Below, piece by piece: positions 11,616 through 38,266 of a stretch of 64,000 bases of DNA. The notes beneath the pieces were generated by a model. It had not been told where the DNA came from. It saw only the letters and a list, made by a program, of their open reading frames with translations, and made no database searches. A program made the translations under genes and the position numbers. This DNA is from Ulota crispa. Taxonomy: Eukaryota; Streptophyta; Bryopsida; Orthotrichales; Orthotrichaceae. Location: assembly GCA_963920765.1 (NCBI GenBank), contig OY987244.1:23168358-23232357 (forward strand), given 5' to 3'. The stretch's first letter is position 1. Each line of letters starts with the position of its first letter.

Positions 11616-12160
11616 GAGCATCTCTAGCTTTGCACTTCAAGCTTAACACTTCAAGAGAAAATATCTATTTTTGAAAGGCACTCCAAATTCTTGTTCTCCA
11701 CCCTTGCACTTCAAGCTTAACACTTCAAGAGAAAATATCTATTTTTGAAAGGCACTCCAAATTCTTGTTCTCCACCCTTGCACTTCAAGCTTAACACTTC
11801 AAGAGAAAATATCTATTTTTGAAAGGCACTCCAAATTCTTGTTCTCCACCCTTGCACTTCAAGCTTAACACTTCAAGAGAAAGTATCTATTTTTGAAAGG
11901 CACTCAAAATTCTTGTTCTCCACCCTTGCACTTCAAACATGACCCTTGCACCCTAAAGCATACCTCATTAATAGTCATTTAACCGTTCACCAAGGGGAGT
12001 ATAAGATAAAGCTCATTAAACTTAAGATGAATAGTGTTTTGAAGGGTCATTGCTTTGACAAACTAGGATGGAGTGCCACGAGAGAATTTTGAGGGGCCCA
12101 AAGCGCTTACCATCCATGCTTGAAGTGTGTCAAACCCTAAGAGAGCAACTGGAGAGACGC
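11616..12160. mobile_element. GAGCATCTC-type element containing a 74-bp array
   Basis: Begins TTAGAGCATCTCTAGC. Its body (GGATAAAGCTCA(T/C)TAAACTTA-like segment, then AATAGTG...GAAGGGTCATTG) is shared with 47848-48130 and with the inverted pair at 53468-55037. The right end is poorly defined (AGAGCAACTGGAGAGACGCT). Non-coding. Confidence 0.5.
11631..11926. repeat. Tandem array, four copies of a 74-bp unit
   Basis: The unit starting TGCACTTCAAGCTTAACACT begins at 11631, 11705, 11779 and 11853, exactly 74 bp apart. The first three full units differ little. The fourth has AAGTATC for AAATATC and ACTCAAAAT for ACTCCAAAT. The start of a fifth follows at 11927 (TGCACTTCAAACATG). The near-identity suggests recent expansion. 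Confidence 0.93.
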
Positions 12161-16154: not shown

Positions 16155-17750
16155 GCGTGATAGCAAAGTGCTTCTTCAATGGCTAAAGATTGTACGTCGT
16201 ACGTCGTAGGAACGTCCGTCATGGCATGATTACTGACAACTCGAACGGACAGCTTCTGTAAAAGGACGCCATAGCCAATGCAAGTACTACGGCGACGAAC
16301 AAAAGCCTCCGGGATTCAAAGTCCGCAGATATGGCGGCCATGGCTTCGTTGTACGTTTTTTCTTCCGTTGCTCCTACTGAAGCCGTTTGCAATTATATTC
16401 CGTCGTTCTGAGTGCGTTTCACTGAACAAAAAAACGACGAGAGTGTTATAACTTAGCTTAGTTCTTGGCGCTCTACGTTAGCTATTTTTTAAATCACTAA
16501 ATTGGAGTGCAATGGCCGAAGGACTGCATATGTTGAAGCCGCTATGGTGATTGTGTCAGCGTTCCTTTGCACGCACATGATGCTGTACTCGAACTTATGC
16601 GGCAATTTGTCATGGTTTGTACTTTAGGACATCCAGTGATCCAGTGAGAGTCCGTGATCGTCCATGACGCTACCGTAGCAGTAGTCCTGCCATGTTTTCA
16701 CATCTCATGCACGCAGTCGGCTCTGTTTTTTTGGCTTTCTAACAAACCGTTAAATGCTATTTATGTTTTCTTGTTGCACTTCGTAACACATTTTCCTCTT
16801 TGAATGCACAAATTCGGCATGATCTGAGCTTTACAAGTACTTCATTTTCTATCGTGCTACCGTAGCAATCCTCACTTCGTTATCGTATTGAAGCCGTTCC
16901 AGTGCACGCGACGGTTGTTATTGGAGTAATTCATTCTGCATAAATTTCTTTGATATTTCCCTTTCATTCAGGTTTATTTCTGAGAGGAGCGTGAATTGAG
17001 GTGACTCAATTTAGTCTGGAGTGGTCCAGGACTACTTACTCGAGGTTGCGGAGTGGCAGTTTTGCTAGTCACGAAATTTAACAAAGGGACGGACTCTTGT
17101 TAATACGAAATTTATCTTTCTCCTTTAGTATGAGGTAACCTTGTTAGGACCGCGATGCTTCTTTTTTTCTCTTTTGAACGCGATGCTTCTCGTCACAAAA
17201 ATGCGGTTCTTATTCATAAGCAGCAGCTTCCGTCGTTAAAAGTCACGCCGAAATCGACCAATGAACTGTCTTTTTCTGCCGGTCTCAAGATTCTGAAATT
17301 ACGGAGACAAGGTATTAATAGTTTCATACAAGAGTCGTCCAAAAATGGATCACTCGAAGCACTGACAAAAAAATAGCTTTCGATTTACGAATTCAAGAAA
17401 CGCTAGCATAAGTTTCTTATAATCTGGTTTGCGCTTTTCGTCCCGGTAAATTTCATTCAACGAAGGTATCGTGACACTATGTCCGCCGTCAATATCCATT
17501 TGTCTAATTCCGATCGTTCTCCCTTGATGGAGAATCACCGACCCTAGAGAGAAATGGTTCTCAAAGGAACACTAATGATCTAATTCTTCCAGACTTTCAA
17601 TTGAACAGATGTCTGCAACAATTGTCTGGAATCAAGAAAAGAGCAACTGTTGCTAGAATCAACATACAGTGGCAGCAACATTCTTGATTCATCTGGTGTA
17701 TTACGAAGACGGGAGATGTATGTATCTGTGAGCTGATTAAAGGCTTCAAA
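16155..17750 (+). promoter_or_regulatory. 5' flank and leader of the GT92 gene
   Basis: Noticeably less AT-rich, with CpG-containing words (TACGTCGTACGTCGTAGG near 16195), unlike the repeats around it. It probably holds the promoter and 5' leader, but no transcription start, TATA box or leader intron could be placed. A 73-codon ATG-started frame at 17155-17376 could be an upstream ORF if transcription begins before it. Confidence 0.4.
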
Positions 17751-20700
17751 ATGTCTGGACATGGATGGAAACCAAGCAAGCCGGCAGCCAGGCCATCAAC
17801 AAACAACAGATCATCGGAGATTGCACGAGTGATACTCTTCTCAATACTCCTGGCGGTCTTATTCCAGTTTCCAATGTCAGCCGTTCATCGTTCCCAGGTC
17901 GAGAGATTCTCCCGCTCAGTAGAGCCGGAGGCTGGTGAACCGGAATCCGCTTATTCATCTGCTATCGTTGAACAGAGCAGAGCAGTACGACAACGAGCAT
18001 ATCAGCCAACGTCCATACCGCACTACGCTTTCATCAAGTTCAGTTCGTATCGAGTTTCGCTGAAGACCTTCCATGTAGTCGGGATCTCAGCACAGGTTGT
18101 CCGTGACTGGGACAGACAGAAAGTCGTGCACACTTGTGAGTGGCACTCGGCTTCAAATGGAAGCCAACTGAATTCGAGTGTGATTGTTGCGAATGCGAGC
18201 ATGCTTTACATTCCATTTGATGAGAATGGGGCGACGTACGTTCCTGCCATCGTGAATTGCACTTTTGGCGACGACGTTGGTGCTGATGGTCATGGCGGGC
18301 AGCTTGTCATTAGGGTTTCCTTGACGTACCATCGATGGGAAAAGGATGTTCCTTCTGTTGTTCTTGATGAACACAACGGTGACGTCGCATTATTTCTCAA
18401 GCCTCCGAAAGAGGTACCGATCAAATCTCTACACATTTTGTCTTCCTTTCAATAGAATTTAGGGAAAATTTCACGGATACCCCTGAAGTTTGCAATAATT
18501 TCATAGATACCCCTGCTTTTTCAGAAATATCACAAATACCCTTGGACCAAAAAATTTAGGTGTTTGTTTTGTTGTGCATGTCACTCCCTTCCTTTCTTTG
18601 TGCACACGCATAACAAGAACATAGTAGTGTGCGCACAAAGGTTGAAGGAAGTGACGTGCATAACAAAGCAAATGTCTAAAATTTGTGGTCCAAAGGTATT
18701 TGTGATATTTCTGAAAAAGCATGGGTATCTATGAAAATATTGCAAACTCTACGGGTATCTATGAAAATATTGCAAACTTTAGGGGTATCCATGAAATTTT
18801 CTCTAGAATTAAATGGCATTCAATTGGATGTCGATCCCCAGGTGCGGCTCTTGAAAATGATTCATTGATATGCTTTTTGCACGTTTTTCTAAACTAAATC
18901 AGAACTTTTTAGTTGATTGCGAATTTTATCAAGAAATGGAGTAAGACTAGTGGTTTTAAGTAGTCCTCCTCTCAACCATGGACACTAGTAAGTACTTTCA
19001 ACACTCTATGTTACCAAAATAGATATCTAACACCGAGATGTCAAACGTTTACAGAAACCTCACAAGTATGCCTTCTGTGGACCTCCGATGCACGGCCACG
19101 TGAATGCCGATTGGATTAAAGCTTGGCTCCTTTATCACAACCACATATGGAAGGGTAATGCACTGTTTTTCTTTTACAATGTGGGAGGCCTGCGGGATGA
19201 CGAGCGGCACCATTTCAAGGAGTTTGTCGAGGCGGGGATTCTCCACATCACAGATCTGGCGAGCACTCAAATTCAGAGTTTGTATCCGGCCTGGTATTAC
19301 CATCAAATCTTGTTTATCAACGATTGCTTCCAACGAGCGCAATTCCTTGCAGATTACGTTTTCTTCTTCGATTTTGATGAGTTTTTACAGGTACAAAGAA
19401 AATTATTGAACTACTGTTGCAACTTACCTTTTTTTTTGGGTCTAATGCTGCTTTAATACGTGTATCAACGTTAGATTGCCAATTTTTTATACTTAGATTC
19501 ATCAGTTTGCTAATCCTCCTACACCAACCGATTAGCACCAATAAGCAAACTAGTAAGGTGTCCATAAAGTAGAAAAAATAAACCAACGTGTTATTTGTCT
19601 ACACGTCCAAGCTTTTGAGGCAGGTTTCAGGGTAACTTACTACCACATCATTGGAGCATGCAATTTATCATTCATACCATTTTTATGGTCATTATCAATT
19701 TGTTCCCCTCTAAATTGGAAGAATTTTCATTTTTTTTTGTTGGTTCCACAAAAAAAAAGGTGGACATCCTATCTATCATTGAAACACAATCATGTGAATA
19801 GTGCTATCATCAAGCTGTAACCATACTCTATAAAGGTGGTGATCTACTTTATAACTAAGAGGCTAGCAAAAATAAATGTAAAGTTTTTATTTTTTCAGTC
19901 AGGTGAAATCAATACAAACTCATTAACAAACACAAGTTCAAAAAGTGCTTGTATTTAGTAATTAGTTCCAGTTATGAAGAGATATTTGCATTGTGAGTTA
20001 CGAGTAATGTTAGTAAAGTCGTTATAGTCCAAAGATTTCCTAATGACACTCTTAACACCAAGTGACAAACATATCATTAGCTAAATGACACTACTTGGTT
20101 GCCATTTAATTGACAAGTAGCCACTAACACAAAGAGCAATATTGTAAGAATCAAGTTGTTTTAACTCTTAAACATTTGAAAGACCTTTGTAGTCAATACA
20201 ATACAAGGTATTTTTCTAGTATTTGGATTAGATCCACACCTTTCCTATTTGAGATTAATAAAGAATTGAAATATAGATCAATGCAATTTTATTGGGTTAT
20301 TTGAGATCCCAAATTAAAACTTTTCATTTGTAGTAAACGCCAATTGTATGGTAAGTATATCTACTATGCCCATGGGACGTTTGAGGATTAAATGACGGTT
20401 GTGATGTGATTTGTCTTTAAACCCTTTAGAGACCACCAAACCATATTTTGGTTCGAGAGAGTAGTTTTTGGCCTATATAGTAAAATTACTCAACAATTTG
20501 GAAAACGATCTTGAAGAATGCTTGTGATCACAATTTTTTTGCATCCAACCCAAAAAACAACAATAGAATCAGATACGGGAGTTGATAAATAATGGTGTTT
20601 ATACATCATGGCCTCAAAATACGTATCCATATTTGGTCAAAGATGGATCAAAGCAACAACACAATACATCAAACATCCAAGAAGAATGCCACATTTCAAT

Positions 20701-22355
20701 TGTGCAATCTTAAAAAAATTCAAATTGCTCAAGGAATACGCTTGTATTGTTTCTCTATATGGTAGTAGTACATGTACTATTTGAAAATCCATTGAAATGA
20801 TGCTATCAATTTGTTTTTAAAAAAATTTATCCTCCATTTAAGGCCAATTCTTGATTGCTTTCACCGATTGGATTTTTTGTAACAATTATCAAATTTCTTG
20901 AAGGTTTAGGGTAGCAAAGAAAATGGGATTCTTGACCCTTTTTGTTCACTTAGCTACACCTTGTGATTGCTATTTTTGTTTATTTTGAGTGAAACTAGTC
21001 TTGTTGGAAAGGTGGGAAACTTTGCTTTCTAGAAATGTAAGGCTCTTCTCAATCAAAGCTTGCATGAAGTGTTAACATTCAAAACCACACAAGCATGAAA
21101 ACTAGAGGTTCTCCACATATGGCTCACTCAATCATTATAATATTTCACCTTCAACAATAGATGTAGTTGAAATTTTGATGAATTGCAACAAATGATGGTG
21201 TCTTTCACATTTGTATAGTTGGATTATTCAACTTAGGTCCATATTTGATTCAAATGCACATCTAATCTTATTGCCTCAATTTCTAGTGCATTTTGGGAAA
21301 ATATGTGTGGTCTTTAAAGGGTTAAGGTATGAAGAGTAAGGTAGAAGAACCTAAAAGTGACACTAGTAGTTTAGTGGCATTTAGAAATAAACCTAAAGCT
21401 GCATGCTCCTGCATGGCTGCACCCAAACAAGACATGCAGGCATCCAAACCAAACATGCAAGTTAACATAAAGGAACATAAATTGTGTAGGTGACGGTCTA
21501 AGATTGGATGTGAGATGGTCTTTTTGTTGTTGTGACACAGTCTCTTTGTTGTCACATTTTTGGGGGTCTAGTGTCTACAATAGGTCAGTCTAGGCGTCTA
21601 GGGAGTTACCTTCAACAATTCATAATTTATTTATACAATCTCAAAAATTCCAAAAAAAATTTACTTACATTTGTGACCATTTACTAACAAGCGCATGCCA
21701 TTAGATTCTCAAAACGCCCTCAAAACCATCACATCTGAAGTAAGTGTCACTTTTAGGTTCTTCTACCTTAGTGTTGTTCTAAGTACCTACTCTCTTACTT
21801 GTGCTTATGGATAAAAAGAGTTGTTTTTCTTGACTGCTTTGAACACAGATCCGTCCTCCACTGACTCTGGATGGCCTGCTGGACGAGCACAAACACCTCC
21901 CCTGGATCTCCGTGGGCAACGTTCCCGCCGACATCGCTCACTGCGCTGCCCCAGATACAAGCCCAATGGGGGACCAGCAGCAGCAGCAGTACGCCGTGGA
22001 ACGAATGCTGTGGCACTACAGCCAACCGGAGTGCCAGAGCTTCGACGAGGACCCGTGGGTGTGCTTCGCTCAAATCGGGCGGCGCAAGTGGATCGCCAAC
22101 ACCAAGTTCGCCATCCTCGGGGGCGTGCACCGCGCCGCTCAGCCAGCCGAGGGCGGACTCCAAGTGAACGGCTCCGAGGCCCGCGTGCTCCACTTCCACG
22201 GGGTTCTCGACCCTTCCAAACGTGTGTGCAGCCATCTGGAAGCGGAGAGCAACCTGGGTCACATGGAACGCGACGAGACCATCAAGCTCGCCTTGGCTCA
22301 AGCCAAACTTTTGCCTCTCAAACGAACAGTCACCACTGCTGCGAGGTACCGGTAG
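17751..22355 (+). CDS. GT92 family glycosyltransferase, galactan synthase (GALS)-related
   Basis: Exons 17751-18413, 19055-19390 and 21849-22355, all phase 0 with GT/AG borders, encode 501 residues. Layout: short cytosolic tail; one signal-anchor helix at about 24-43; stem and lumenal part with several N-glycosylation sequons (NGS, NSS, NAS, NCT); then the GT92/DUF23 catalytic domain with a KYAFCGPPMHG start (225-235), a WLLYH segment, YYHQ...FINDC, and the metal-binding DFDEF (327-331); then YAVERMLW (381-388), GRRKW and a C-terminal LHFHGV block. GALS enzymes add beta-1,4-galactose to pectic galactan in the Golgi from UDP-galactose. The family is clear; the exact acceptor is inferred. Length is near the usual 490-520. 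Oddities: a Gln-5 run at 376-380; introns packed with transposon relics; the end of the last exon is repeated twice more downstream with open frames. Start: first ATG of an open exon, giving a good type II membrane topology. Confidence 0.88.
18461..18804. mobile_element. Long-TIR MITE in GT92 intron 1, AGGGAAAATTTCA type
   Basis: Inverted arms of roughly 90-110 bp built from ATACCCCT / GGGTATC words; ends AGGGAAAATTTCACGGATAC and GTATCCATGAAATTTTCTCT. The right arm contains a 30-bp direct duplication (GGGTATCTATGAAAATATTG). Second copy at 28567-28889. The long terminal repeats resemble Mutator-like MITEs, but no target duplication was resolved. Confidence 0.7.
20161..20391. mobile_element. 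About 230-bp TTAA-class MITE, copy 1, GT92 intron 2
   Basis: Ends TTAACTCTTAAACAT and GGGACGTTTGAGGATTAA. Body includes CAATACAATACAAGGTATTT and TTTGAGATCCCAAATTAAAA. Copies at 27033-27273, 41766-41996 and 46295-46517. Non-coding. Confidence 0.75.
20417..21325 (+). mobile_element. About 0.92-kb TTAA-class element, GT92 intron 2
   Basis: Ends TTAAACCCTTTAGAGACCAC and GTGTGGTCTTTAAAGGGTTA+A. Colinear with 29100-30042 and 46714-47628, including CTTAGCTACACCTTGTGATT and GAAACTAGTCTTGTTGGAAA. It begins 25 bp after the preceding TTAA-class MITE. No transposase. Confidence 0.8.
21337..21770 (-). mobile_element. MITE, TAAGGTAGAAG(C/A)ACC subfamily, copy 2, inverted
   Basis: TAAGGTAGAAGAACCTAAAA at the left and TTTTAGGTTCTTCTACCTTA at the right. 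Inverted relative of 7004-7423. It ends 78 bp upstream of the exon 3 acceptor (21849), so it abuts the splicing signals. It is the third element in intron 2 (19391-21848). Confidence 0.78.
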
Positions 22356-31660: not shown

Positions 31661-32275
31661 ATCCCGTTGATATGACGGGCTGTATTTACATCTATAAAAG
31701 AATCCCAAGACCCCATTTTGGATGAAAAGTAAAAAGTTTGAGTGCAGTTATGCGTTGCATTCCATGTATGTAAGTTGCACCTTTTACATTTTATTTATTT
31801 AACAGGTTTCACTTTTTACGTTTTCTATTGTTGCACCTTTTACATTTTCCATTTAATCCCTCCGTTGGTACAACAGGTACATAAACTAGTACTAATAGAA
31901 TTAATATTCTTCTTCCCTACACTACTTCAGAAATTATGCCTGACATTTGCATTTAAGAACTAATGTTTTCTATCACGAGTTGTGTGCCCTTCCTCCAACA
32001 TAGCGTGATGAATCTTTTCATGAGTCCAACTTATCTCATGTGCCAGTTGTGGCGAGTCTTTCAAGTGGGCAAGTGTTCTTCGAGAAGACCAGAGTGACGC
32101 CAACCTTCCTCCATTCATCCATTCATTCATCCATGCATCCACCTTCCGTGATGGAACCGCTTCGCAGTATCGATGAATGTCATCCTCCTGCAGACATCAT
32201 CCCCCGGACTGCGGGGGCTCCACGAGGGTGCTCCACTTCCGCGATCGGATTACCGAGTCGCGTTTCACCGTATAA

Positions 32276-32560
32276 TTTCATCCAACTCGGCTATAAAATG
32301 AGCGCAACGATCAACTTCATCCATATATGAACGGCGTCGATATAGCATCGAATGAGAAACTACAGATGGATTTCATCCACATCCGCTCGAGTACGAGCAC
32401 AAATATCAACGCCATCCATTTAATGAACGGAGTTGCTAGAGCATCGAATGAGAAAATATGGATGCATTTCATCCAACTTCTCTAGAAAATGAGTGTCACG
32501 ATGAACTTCATCCTTATATGAACGGCGTCCCTACAGAATCGAATGAGAAACTATGGATGA
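32276..32560. repeat. 95-bp tandem repeat, three copies, upstream of the Rab gene
   Basis: Units start TTTCATCCA at 32276, 32371 and 32467 and end near GAATGAGAAA(C/A)TA. Shared words: TATATGAACGGCGT, GCATCGAATGAGAAA. Period 95-96 bp; units have diverged by point changes. A simple ATTCATCC-type run sits just before (about 32110-32140). Confidence 0.85.
32288..32300 (+). promoter_or_regulatory. TATA-like box candidate for the Rab gene
   Basis: GGCTATAAAATGA lies in the first 95-bp unit. Copy 3 has CTAGAAAATGA at the equivalent place and copy 2 lacks it. It is about 860 bp before the ATG, so a long or spliced leader would be needed. The 32561-33156 interval is CpG-containing and leader-like, with a T-run ending in CAG at 32779. 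Confidence 0.25.
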
Positions 32561-33156
32561 ATGTACGTCGGAGGGGGGGTCTCCTTGGCCTGGCTGGCTC
32601 GCTTGCTCTCCCTTTCTTCCCGAGCTTGGAGCTCCGGTGCCTCTGCTGTCGTGGTGTCCGCGCTTGCTTCGAAAACGCCGTCGATCGCTTGCGAAGCAGA
32701 GATCTTAGGCGTGCCCTTGCTCGACTAAGCTTATGTACGTAATCAGCTCTCTCCTGTTCTATTCTGTATTTTTTTTCAGGTTTCGAATTTGGTAGATGAA
32801 AGCTCTGTTTCCGAGTTTTGGTGTTCGGCGATCTGACGAATCGGAAGTAAGCTTAAGGTGTGAGAAATTTGTTGAGATGCCGTTTCATCGAAATGCGGGA
32901 GTGATCTGATCTACGAGCTTTAGCAGCTGTGAATTGAGCTTCACTGAAACCTAGGTTAAAGTGAAGAGTCTCGGCTGTGAGACGATATTTCTTTGCGCTG
33001 TTGCTTTTCAGTGCGAGGTTTTTGTTATCTGATTCTCAAGAGTTCGTTTTTTTGGAGAACAGAGCTTTGTCGGCACCGGTAAACAAGGAGTGAGACAGAG
33101 AGACAGCGTGGAGATAGGGTCAAGTTGGATCTTGTGAAGGGCTGCAACTAGCCGTC

Positions 33157-35821
33157 ATGGCCGCGGGTGGATCACGAGCTCGGGCCGACTACGATTACCT
33201 CATCAAGCTGCTGTTAATCGGCGACAGCGGTATGTGTACTGACCTCGAGAGAATTCAATCCCGGTCTTAGTGAGCTCTCTCTCTCTCGGCATTTTGAGGA
33301 TGTTTTCTGTGAGCTTGAGTATCGGCGAAAAGCGAGTGTTAGGCGTTGCTTTTCCAACAAGTTAATCGATACAAGCACACTTTAAATAGCTGTTTTATGA
33401 GTTATATGGCATTTACCGTATTGTCAGCCGGTGAATGCAGTGAGATATTAAAACTATCCGCTGTCTTTCACATTTTATCATCCACACTGCACAAGTAGCA
33501 GCATTAATCTTGTAGTGCGCTCATGCTCTCGTTACGATATCTGGGACTCAACTCGCTTGAGCCGCAGTTTATTCGAGTTGTGCTAATGACGAGTGTTTTT
33601 CATGTTCCTTGACCAGCGTACTGGTCCTAGTCTGTATTTGCAATAGGTCTTCGTGTACTTGAGGACTAGAGGCTTGCGTGCTTATGAAGAGTGCGGTTTT
33701 TGTAACAAAATGACATCTAGGTTGATGTGTCCCGTACATGGTTGTGTCAATGACGGTCTGCTTTGCGTTGTAATTGACATTTGCAGGGGTTGGGAAGTCT
33801 TGTCTTCTCCTTCGTTTTTCCGACGACTCTTTCACGACGAGTTTCATCACCACGATAGGGTATGCTTTATTGGGCATTCATTTAAGAGTATCTTGGGAAA
33901 GTCGCTTAGGATCTGGTTGGTTTAATTAAATTATGAACGCTAAGATTTCTATTGTTGAATCTCGTGTTTATCTTCTCGAAACGGTGTTTTGCCTCACAGG
34001 TGTTTTGTTCGTGCATCTCGTCGTGGGCACATACTTTTAGTTCTGTTCGTCTTCGTCATGTCATCATGAATGTGAAGTGCTTGTGTTGGTTTATACTCCC
34101 GTACATGGCTTTCAATGCCAGCAATTGTAGTGCGCGAGTGTACTATTCATTTGGAATTCCAGCGTGTCTCCGCTAGTGTTTGAACGATTCATGGCATAAT
34201 TTTGAGAAAAGTGTAAATTTTGGTCGAACTAGAGAACTGTTCACGGTATGTAGAATTTATCGCATCTTTTGCACTGTATTATGTCACTCCTGCCGTCTTG
34301 GAATATTTTCTGTACGTTTTTTGATTCTTTGATGTGCAGCTTATTACAGAGGAGCAATGGGAATATTGTTGGTCTACGATGTGACAGATGAATCTTCATT
34401 CAACAGTATCCATCCTTCTGCAATTTTTTTGTCTTTATTGCATTTGATCAGTTTTGGATCGCAAGGGATTTGTTCTTCTTATGGCGATCTTGTTTTAAAC
34501 ATGGCATGTCGGTGAAAAAGGAGGAATCTCGCTGTTGACATGACTCGGCATGCATCAGATATTCGGAACTGGATCAGGAACATTGAGCAGCATGCGTCTG
34601 ACAATGTGAACAAGATCCTGGTAGGAAACAAGGCTGATATGGACGAGAGTAAACGAGTACGTACCTAACACTCACTTATGTTATAGTTTCGCCATGTATG
34701 CTGCCTGAGGCGCATCCGACATCTGTTTTCTCTCTTTTTCGTCGAGAACTTGGAATTCAAGTTCGAGGCACATGTTTCACCCATGTTCTGCTGAGATGTC
34801 TCTATTTGAGTGTATGCTGATGTAGTTAGGCAATTCCGATATCTGCACTAATACTCGTGCCTGAATACGGGTTTAGTATCCATCTATTTTTACTTATATT
34901 TCCGATTTCAAAACTGATTCACGCACTGAGCGTCTCATCACGGTAACTGTCCAATAAGAAGTTACAGGACAGTACGTCATTTTTGATCTAATGGTTTTTG
35001 CATTTTATGATAGGATGAGTTTTGGTTCCATCATCATTCCGAACGCGTTATTTTTTTGTTTTTGTAGCTTGTAAACTTGAAATAACAATATTTTGATGGA
35101 CCGGAGCTCTCTCGCTGTATTCTGTAAGATTACGTCCAGTCCTCTATATCTGAAATTCTTGGCCTCCGGGGCATGTGAGGTGTTAATGGAGATATGGTTA
35201 TTTGTGCAGGCGGTCCCTTTTGCCAAAGGTCAAGCTCTGGCTGATGAATTTGGAATCAAGTTTTTTGAAACTGTAAGTTAACGATGTAGTCCTGTATATC
35301 TTTCATGAAAAGAATTGGCTTTGTGGTACTGTGCAGACATTAACGTAGTTGGATGCTAATACTAATTCCAGTTGTTAGTACCTTTATTCTGGGTGCCTCC
35401 TATTCCTGGCAATTTGACCACAGAGTTACTGATGACTAGCTTGTGATCAACGAATGTATTGCAGAGTGCCAAAACAAACATGAATGTGGAGGATGTTTTC
35501 TTCACAGTTGCGAGGGACATCAAACAAAGGCTAGCGGAGTCCGATTCAAAACCAGAGGTGACTTAACGTTTTTTTTGTTTTTATAGGGATATCCTATTGC
35601 TTTGTAGATTAGGTACGATTTGAATTAGCTGTTATATTCTTTCCCCTGGATCTTCCTTAGGTACTGCAAGCGTTACGTATTGTATAAGCAGGACAAAAAC
35701 TTAACAACATTAGTACAACATTCGTTCTTTGCAGGTTGCCAAGAATGCCAAGCCAGATGTCAAGCTTACTCCTGGGAACGCTCAACAGAAGCCAGCTGCT
35801 GGTTCTTGCTGCTCATCATAG
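33157..35821 (+). CDS. Rab8/RABE-type small GTPase gene lacking the switch II exon
   Basis: RABE GTPases (plant Rab8) drive Golgi-to-plasma-membrane vesicle transport. Exons seen: 33157-33229, 33787-33859, 34340-34405, 34559-34656, 35210-35272, 35465-35557, 35735-35821, all with GT/AG borders. Exon 1 starts [20 protein letters not shown]; the P-loop GDSGVGKS spans exons 1-2 (residues 22-29); exon 2 has switch I with TTIG. Later exons give [23 protein letters not shown] (G4), SAK (G5), and the C-terminal CCSS for double geranylgeranylation. Missing: the segment between TTIG and AYYRG, which holds the DTAGQE (G3/switch II) motif. Exon 2 ends two bases into a codon and exon 34340 begins with two; an exon of about 101 nt is needed, which would give 217 residues, the family size. 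Nothing like it lies in 33860-34339, and direct joining shifts the frame. So this is a damaged gene, an assembly loss, or a gene with that exon elsewhere. Confidence 0.9.
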
Positions 35822-38266
35822 GTATGACTTATGTTGGAAAATACTTCTGACCTTTGGAATCTATCCCTAGTCCAGAATACAATTTTACTGTGTTTTGAGC
35901 TTTCTCCAAGCAGCTGCTTGCATGCTTTGGAGTTGATTCTTGGGCCAGGGTTGTAAGCTGAAACCTCTAGTCAAGAAACTAGAGATTTCTTGGGGCCATT
36001 TGGGAGGGGCCACATGGCACTGAAGCGTTCTGCTAAGTTCTCTTTACCGATTTTTTGAAAGCAACATTGCACAAAGTTTTAGCTTTCTCAATTCCTTCTC
36101 AGGATGAGACGCTAAGAGATGAGATAGACATGGCTCTCTGCAATAGATTGACTTGCTAACTTTCTCTATTTGACTACTTTAGATATATTTGCATAGATTT
36201 CACTTCCTTAGTATCTTTTTAGAGGATATAGTGCTGATGGTATGTCCTTGTGGAGTACTTCGATTGTGTAACATCTCTTGGTATTAGGATTGTCGGGTGG
36301 GGTCGTAAATGTGTTGTGAACTGATTTTGTGTAGCTTGCAGTATTGTAATTACTGATGGTTTTTTCAATGCAACCTTTTAAGAATGTTGAGATATTCGTT
36401 TGTGGTTCATCGTTGTGTGATCAAATGACGTCTATAAATTCCATGTTTGTTTTGGATGTGCCTTTATCTGAGACACGTAAAGGCTCTGGTTCCTTGTTGG
36501 TGTCCGTTTTTCTCCTTGAGTCTCAAGTTATGCACCTCGTGGTCTTGATCCATAATTAAGTTGGATGATGAACTATGTTCTCTATGACAGATTGTACTGG
36601 TGGCCTCAGGATGAATTTCTTAGGTGTCTCTGATAATTTTTGGCCTTTTTAATGCCTAAACTTTTAGCGTCTTTAGGGTCTGGTCTTTCTTTCTCTCTTG
36701 TCACAAAGAGCTGGAAGTGTTATCATGACCAAGTGGACGATCTTACGGGTCAGTTATCTAATAGTTTTGCAAACAAGTTTTTGAAAAACTTAAATATTTT
36801 GATGCAAAGATCAAATGCGTAGACCTCCTAACAATTGGGTTGACTTTTATGTAATGTGGCACGACATGTTGTAGATGTATACATAGAAACTATGATTATG
36901 ATACACGAGGGCTATATCACGCTTGCATACCATGAGTACATAAGCATAATCCATCAATGTTAAATGTATGCGATCTATTGATGTTTTCTATTACCATGTT
37001 ATTGATCCATACAAATGACGTGTTTTGTTTTTGGTGAATAATGTGGTCAAAGCACGTAGAAGGCAATTTCACGTAAGACCAACGCGTTCGTGCAAAGCTT
37101 GGTTAGTGTTATTATATTATCTTGAAGTACAAATGAAAGGTGCACTCAAATGAGTCCTACCTTTTCGTGGTTTTGCAATAGGCTTGGTTTTGCATTAGAT
37201 TATTGCAACCTCTAGATAAAACTTTAATGTACCACTTGCATCATTTTCCAATTTTGGATAGACCCTCTAGGGTACGATATTTGTTGGATACTCCAAAAAA
37301 ATTAACTAAGCTAGAGGCAATTTAAGAAACCATGATAGTTGGGTCCAACATCCTAAAATTGATGTTTATGGCAAATATCACTTCGTGCCAAGTGTAATGG
37401 ATCTTAGTAAAAATTGAGGGCCCTTTTTTACATTTAGGAACAAATAAGTTAGTTACAAGAGGGTTTGTCCTTGTAACATTGCCTAACTTGTTTTTTGAGT
37501 GAGGTACTTATTCAAACTTTCTCAAAATAACTTCTCTTTACACAAAAGCTTCCTCCCTTGCAATCAAGAGACAACTAATCAAGCTCAATGAATTTTTGGT
37601 TGCCCTTGAGTTAGGTTTGTTGGCATCTAGTTTGAGAAACCCTTGTGGACAAAACAAAGGGGGCCACCTTGGACTTGTCATGGATTGTTAACCCTGAAAT
37701 GTTTGTGGCACCCAGATTCTGGTGATATTTACACTAGAACCTGGTGCCTTAAGCATTTAGGGGGTAATTAGGAAAATCAAAGAAATGTTTTGACACTAAA
37801 ATACATTTAGAAGACCACAGTTTCTTTTATTTAATTGTCTTAAAATTTGTTTGTTGCTTTTGTTGGCAATTTGAAAGACACGTCTCATGCTCTCTTCTTT
37901 AGACAATTACATGAAAGGCTACAATTATGTTAAAAATACATTCAAAATTGGCTCTTTGATTCAAATTGTGTATATTTTAGGTAATAATCCAATTTGTACG
38001 GATTGCTTTAGTTGAACATGGTGCTAGTCTTTTTTGCTTTTGAGGATTATTGTAGTTGTCAATCGCAATGTCTACTTTCTAACAGAGTTATCAAGGATGA
38101 ATTTTACCATCTAGATTCATGAGGTTTAAACATTTGAACCGTTTTCAACAAGAAATTGATTCACAATAGTTTTTTAAAACTGGGATCAATTTTCACTAGT
38201 AGAAATAAGGTCTTGGGGCACCAAATAGTGACATTGTAGCTTGGTACCCCCACAACATTATTTCTA
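35822..38266. other. Rab 3' flank, then gene desert
   Basis: The first several hundred bases are probably Rab 3' UTR; a donor-like GTATGA directly follows the stop codon, so a 3' UTR intron is possible. Beyond about 36850 the DNA is AT-rich. Part of 37450-37640 resembles 15470-15560. No supported gene. Confidence 0.4.

Follow-up and report, generated by a model that had tools for sequence, protein, structure and literature searches.

The RABE gene considered here raises the question of how a GTPase gene can stand in good order in seven exons and without the exon for its G3/switch II region: whether that exon has been deleted from the plant, was dropped from the assembly, or is something the gene can do without. 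The locus lies in a stretch of 64,000 nucleotides of the Ulota crispa genome (the window; C3:23168358-23232357 in an assembly of 274.8 Mb and 157 contigs), and the interval in which the exon would be expected corresponds to C3:23202217-23202696. Within the window, a gene for a RABE (Rab8/Sec4-type) GTPase is seen in seven exons at 33157-35821, with a coding total of 553 nt and with all six introns, as read, bordered by GT and AG (Table 1). Among PDB sequences, the joined exons match Rab8A chains best, and at the DNA level they are most similar, within the genome, to the RABE copies on C9, two of which carry all 33 of the Rab8A exon-3 residues; as judged by these matches, Rab8 is the nearest subfamily. 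All 56 of the columns that are invariant among four reference Rabs, at positions within the seven exons, are kept. The G1 P-loop is present as GDSGVGKS in exons 1-2, G4 (NKxD) as GNKAD, and G5 (SAK) as ETSAK spanning exons 6-7, while the CCSS end supplies the C-terminal prenylation cysteines. Both halves of the gene are free of stops, the first for 48 residues plus GG and the second for 134 residues and the stop codon, so that the RABE identity, the seven exons and the exon borders proposed in an earlier note on this DNA all held; no single open frame, however, runs through all of the exons. At 32275-32559 of the window, ~0.6 kb upstream of the start codon, a 95-bp unit occurs in three imperfect tandem copies (73 % matches), and a donor-like GTATGACT directly follows the TAG stop (window 35819-35829) and could belong to an intron in the 3' UTR.

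Table 1. Exons of the window RABE copy and the interval between exons 2 and 4
Feature	Position in window	Strand	Basis or remark
RABE exon 1	33157..33229	+	homology to Rab8A
RABE exon 2, with switch I	33787..33859	+	25-residue peptide same in both C9 paralogues
480-nt GT-AG interval in place of intron 2, exon 3 and intron 3	33860..34339	+	
RABE exon 4	34340..34405	+	
RABE exon 5, carries GNKAD (G4)	34559..34656	+	
RABE exon 6, start of G5	35210..35272	+	
RABE exon 7	35465..35557	+	
RABE exon 8, C-terminal tail, CCSS end, TAG stop	35735..35821	+	

Alignment to Rab8A defines what is absent. Between the two halves, 33 residues (IDFKIR...) are lacking, and their 99 nt, together with one base from each split codon, give a missing exon of 101 nt, the size that the earlier note had claimed. 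The lost block holds G3 and the RabF1-F3 motifs. When the Rab8A exon-3 peptide was compared with the interval in six frames, its score of 23 was reached by 93 of 200 first-order Markov resamples, which preserve dinucleotide make-up, while the Rab8A peptides of exons 2, 4 and 6, used as controls, scored 88, 93 and 49, values that none of 200 resamples reached; the note's reading that nothing like IWDTAGQE stands in the interval is thereby confirmed. Across the gene region 32700-36300, the score of the exon-3 peptide was matched by 143 of 200 resamples, and a tblastn search with it over the 64-kb window gave nothing convincing (best E = 1.1). WDTAGQE/switch II was hence found neither in the interval nor in the gene nor in the whole window. 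A divergent or inverted exon 3 inside the interval was rejected, both strands scoring like random DNA. In its composition (39 % GC, 39 % T), the interval resembles the remaining five introns (35-43 % GC, 34-40 % T). Searches of Rfam at gathering scores gave no match, a viral-contig scan gave no relative, and a promoter/terminator scan of the interval, using a bacterial pattern, stayed near chance. A limited literature search turned up no paper that we recognised as dealing with this locus or with a RABE gene that lacks switch II.

As assembled, the gap breaks the reading frame. If exon 2 is joined directly to exon 4, translation goes out of frame and a stop within exon 4 ends it after 65 residues; the frame shift and the loss of G3 anticipated in the note are both seen. 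Stops are met as well if the interval is retained in the transcript.

The genome holds intact relatives of this gene, as the earlier note had suggested looking for. Two RABE paralogues lie in tandem on C9, A (L052; C9:6425169-6427485) encoding 216 residues and B (L053; C9:6431193-6434717) encoding 214, each in eight coding exons, and the exon 3 of both is 101 nt long, exactly in the phase that the window copy needs. A genome search with the exon-3 peptide, also proposed in the note, listed 29 places with E values of at most 10. Among these matches, the two that are identical at 33 of 33 residues are both C9 genes, two neighbouring rows at C9:2.675 Mb make up one broken RABE copy, and the remaining 25, taken as a set rather than classified one by one, score at most 46.9 bits against 63.1. 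With the exon-2 peptide, three of the six places listed are full matches, one in the window and one in each of the C9 genes; the broken C9 copy is missing here because its exon 2 is truncated. Among the matches listed, an intact exon 3 is consequently present in just two of the three long RABE copies, and no relocated third exon 3 appears in the 157 contigs searched. The exon-3 peptides of A and B are identical at 33/33 residues (88 of 101 bases agree), and therefore a moved copy should have been found.

The age and history of the window copy can be read from its remaining exons. In exons 1-7, leaving out exon 3, 152 of 154 residues are identical to those of A, and by the Nei-Gojobori method there are 54 synonymous differences at 102.5 sites and two amino-acid-changing ones at 359.5 sites. 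The resulting values (dS 0.91 and dN/dS 0.006 for exons 1-7; 0.87 and 0.019 when exon 8 is added), like those against B (dS 1.30 for exons 1-7 and 1.35 overall), are near saturation and hence rough. Over all aligned codons, the changes unique to the window copy are 26 synonymous and four not, as compared with 24 and three unique to A; in exons 1-7, five residues differ among the three copies and just one, a T to S change, is specific to the window copy. The window copy is thus old, at a dS of about 0.9 from A, and has long been under purifying selection. It resembles a non-processed pseudogene, as assembled, in having kept its introns and in having a broken frame. The relaxed selection and further lesions of a pseudogene are not seen: beyond the gap there is no stop, frameshift or lost splice site, and the low dN/dS against A in exons 1-7 stands.

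Since exons 1-7 show only two amino-acid differences from A, one of them specific to the window copy, any loss must be recent. In a rough model, the joint probability of finding no other lesion and one amino-acid change is 0.41 at 0.4 % neutral divergence since the loss, 0.055 at 1.0 % and 0.0085 at 1.5 %. The absence of lesions alone bounds the loss far more loosely (0.42 at 1 %, 0.08 at 3 %). The rate of disabling changes was taken from simulation, with transitions assumed at 2:1 and 0.12 indels per substitution, and the timing figures depend on these assumed rates. If the gap inactivates the gene, the model would place its origin within roughly 1 % neutral divergence; with half of the window-A distance at ~0.44, the loss would then fall within about the last 2-3 % of the branch leading to the window copy. 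The modelled timing speaks for a deletion that is very young or polymorphic, or for the plant having none at all.

The reading that we consider best, and to which we give about an even chance, is a very recent or polymorphic deletion of exon 3, by which the gene is just becoming a pseudogene while two intact paralogues buffer the loss. The window gene would have been a working copy for most of its history, until a very recent deletion took exon 3, with G3/switch II and the neighbouring Rab motifs, together with part of the flanking introns. The result would be one fused intron of 480 nt that uses the former intron 2 donor and intron 3 acceptor, and a transcript that joins exon 2 to exon 4 and ends prematurely, as described above, yielding no GTPase. 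The window copy would accordingly be an incipient pseudogene, or else a null allele of the individual sequenced, and the plant would tolerate its loss thanks to the two intact paralogues. What we infer here is that the exon is missing from the plant itself, and not just from the assembly, and that its absence inactivates the gene. A broken copy of A, described below, shows that such deletions occur in the family; on the other hand, the gap is the only lesion, a pattern that an assembly error would also give.

The breakpoints of such a deletion cannot be read, because the window introns have diverged too far from those of the paralogues. Single blastn alignments do span exon 4-intron 4-exon 5 (71-73 % to A and B), and another runs from exon 7 to the 3' UTR (67 % to A). 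The window introns compared alone with A or B gave no clear signal. Two scoring schemes were used, and the best results, each from a single scheme, came from comparisons with B: one resample in 200 did as well as intron 4, and three in 200 did as well as intron 6. The interval, set against A or B, likewise gave nothing clear, be it with intron 2, with intron 3 or with the full span. The interval's 480 nt compares with 481 nt for intron 2, exon 3 and intron 3 together in A and 997 nt in B, and the agreement with A is taken as coincidence. Direct repeats that link intron 1 with the interval, a 12-mer (33730, 34097) and an 11-mer (33510, 34125), were rejected as a deletion footprint, as by our own estimate a similar number is expected by chance in 3.1 kb. 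On synteny with C9, the one neighbour tried, an exon for a glycosyltransferase of family 92 (Pfam PF01697; window 19031-19453), has no copy near C9:6.4 Mb. The nearest relative of this exon in the genome is on C1, at 50 % identity over 130 residues, and the long ORFs that flank it (17688-18452 and 21843-22352) have no Pfam match. Elsewhere in the window, at 11630-11936, is a near-perfect tandem repeat of a 74-bp unit (4.1 copies, 99 % matches).

The strongest rival, to which we grant somewhat less than an even chance, is that the gene is intact in the plant and that a few hundred bases with exon 3 were dropped in contig building or consensus. The functional look of the rest of the gene, with its dN/dS of 0.006 against A and its single residue of its own in exons 1-7, speaks for such an error, as does the gap being the sole lesion seen. 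Against it, there is no N anywhere in the window, and a genome search with the interval returned only the interval itself, so that no repeat or foreign sequence stands at the join; a chimaeric join or a repeat insertion is unlikely for that reason. Moreover, the missing exon was not found elsewhere in the 157 contigs, among the matches listed, and the borders of the junction are still a clean GT and AG. As a matter of judgement rather than calculation, we place a real, recent deletion slightly ahead of assembly error.

It is improbable that the gene works without an exon 3 of its own, whether through an unrecognised cryptic exon or through a C9 exon 3 joined in trans, to give an in-frame product that might be a non-cycling GTPase. 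Selection on the remaining gene does seem unrelaxed, and a strong internal donor, ACG/GTATGT at 34246, has a higher score than any of the 20 real donors in the three RABE copies. By our own estimate, however, a hexamer match of this kind is not rare within 480 nt, and we give it little weight; the top internal acceptor, ending at 33999, is weak and ranks under 18 of 20 real acceptors, with scores for donors and acceptors alike coming from a matrix derived from the same real sites that were compared. The stretch between these two sites, 34000-34245, is 246 nt long, a multiple of three, and therefore fails to restore the phase; it lies outside the 31 AG/GT-bordered cryptic exons in the interval that would keep the frame. 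In none of those 31 is a switch II recognisable, so that the divergent in-phase exon which the earlier note had allowed for did not appear. There is no orphan exon among the genome matches listed, and no evidence of trans-splicing exists. Still less credible is a gene that works under selection with its switch II exon supplied in trans from C9 RABE pre-mRNAs, or with a product that is truncated or cryptic. A RABE that functions without the exon is unlikely; of the three options raised in the note, clean exon loss and assembly deletion are both retained and a special transcript finds little support.

That exon 3 was moved elsewhere by translocation or inversion, or persists in diverged form, is very improbable; nothing was found in its favour, as the matches listed hold only the two full peptides and the broken copy at C9:2.675 Mb, and as neither strand of the interval rises above random DNA.

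The broken copy (L054; C9:2673000-2677500, minus strand, with RABE sequence at 2.674-2.675 Mb) is 94.5 % identical to A over 695 nt. An internal deletion has taken out its intron 1 and part of exon 2, so that exon 1 now runs straight into what is left of exon 2; the residues of exon 3 fall in two different frames, and exons 5-8 were not recognised in the 4.5 kb around the fragment. It is a decayed pseudogene, a fragment of gene A, and illustrates how a RABE copy in decay looks in this genome. Several other loci were also seen. A RAB2-like remnant (L055; C1:6164500-6171500, minus strand, about 2442-2996) has a match that begins at GQESFRS and an in-frame stop, and its N-terminal half was not found in the 7 kb around the locus; remnants without a full G3 may therefore not be unique in this genome, this one being plainly degraded. 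A Ras-family gene (Pfam PF00071) occurs as an inverted pair ~16 kb apart (C3:23827000-23834000 and C3:23845500-23852500; L062 and L063), on the same contig as the window and 0.6 Mb from it. The inverted copies of 2684 nt differ by one mismatch, and the pair is either a palindrome of recent origin or a duplication made in the assembly. At C6:16.00-16.04 Mb, a Ran-like exon with WDTAGQEKFGGLRDGY is present three times within ~35 kb, in both orientations (L056, L057 and L058).

Should the deletion be real, a trafficking gene under high constraint is seen here when its loss has only just begun, and its backups are identified; if it is not, a local assembly error would lead annotation to drop or truncate a RABE gene. 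In either case, the kind of event, or artefact, is ordinary and not a new biological system. The window copy is like paralogues A and B in exon layout and, for A, in nearly all residues of exons 1-7, and differs from them in that they have exon 3 and full frames. With the broken copy of A, it has in common that a RABE gene was damaged by internal deletion, in the window copy as assembled; unlike that fragment, however, it has no decay besides the gap. Compared with plant RABE1, animal Rab8 and yeast Sec4, the window copy shares G1, the end of switch I, YYRGAMG, NKAD, ETSAK and the double-cysteine tail, but is without G3/switch II and its flanking block, 33 residues in all, and shifts frame across the gap.
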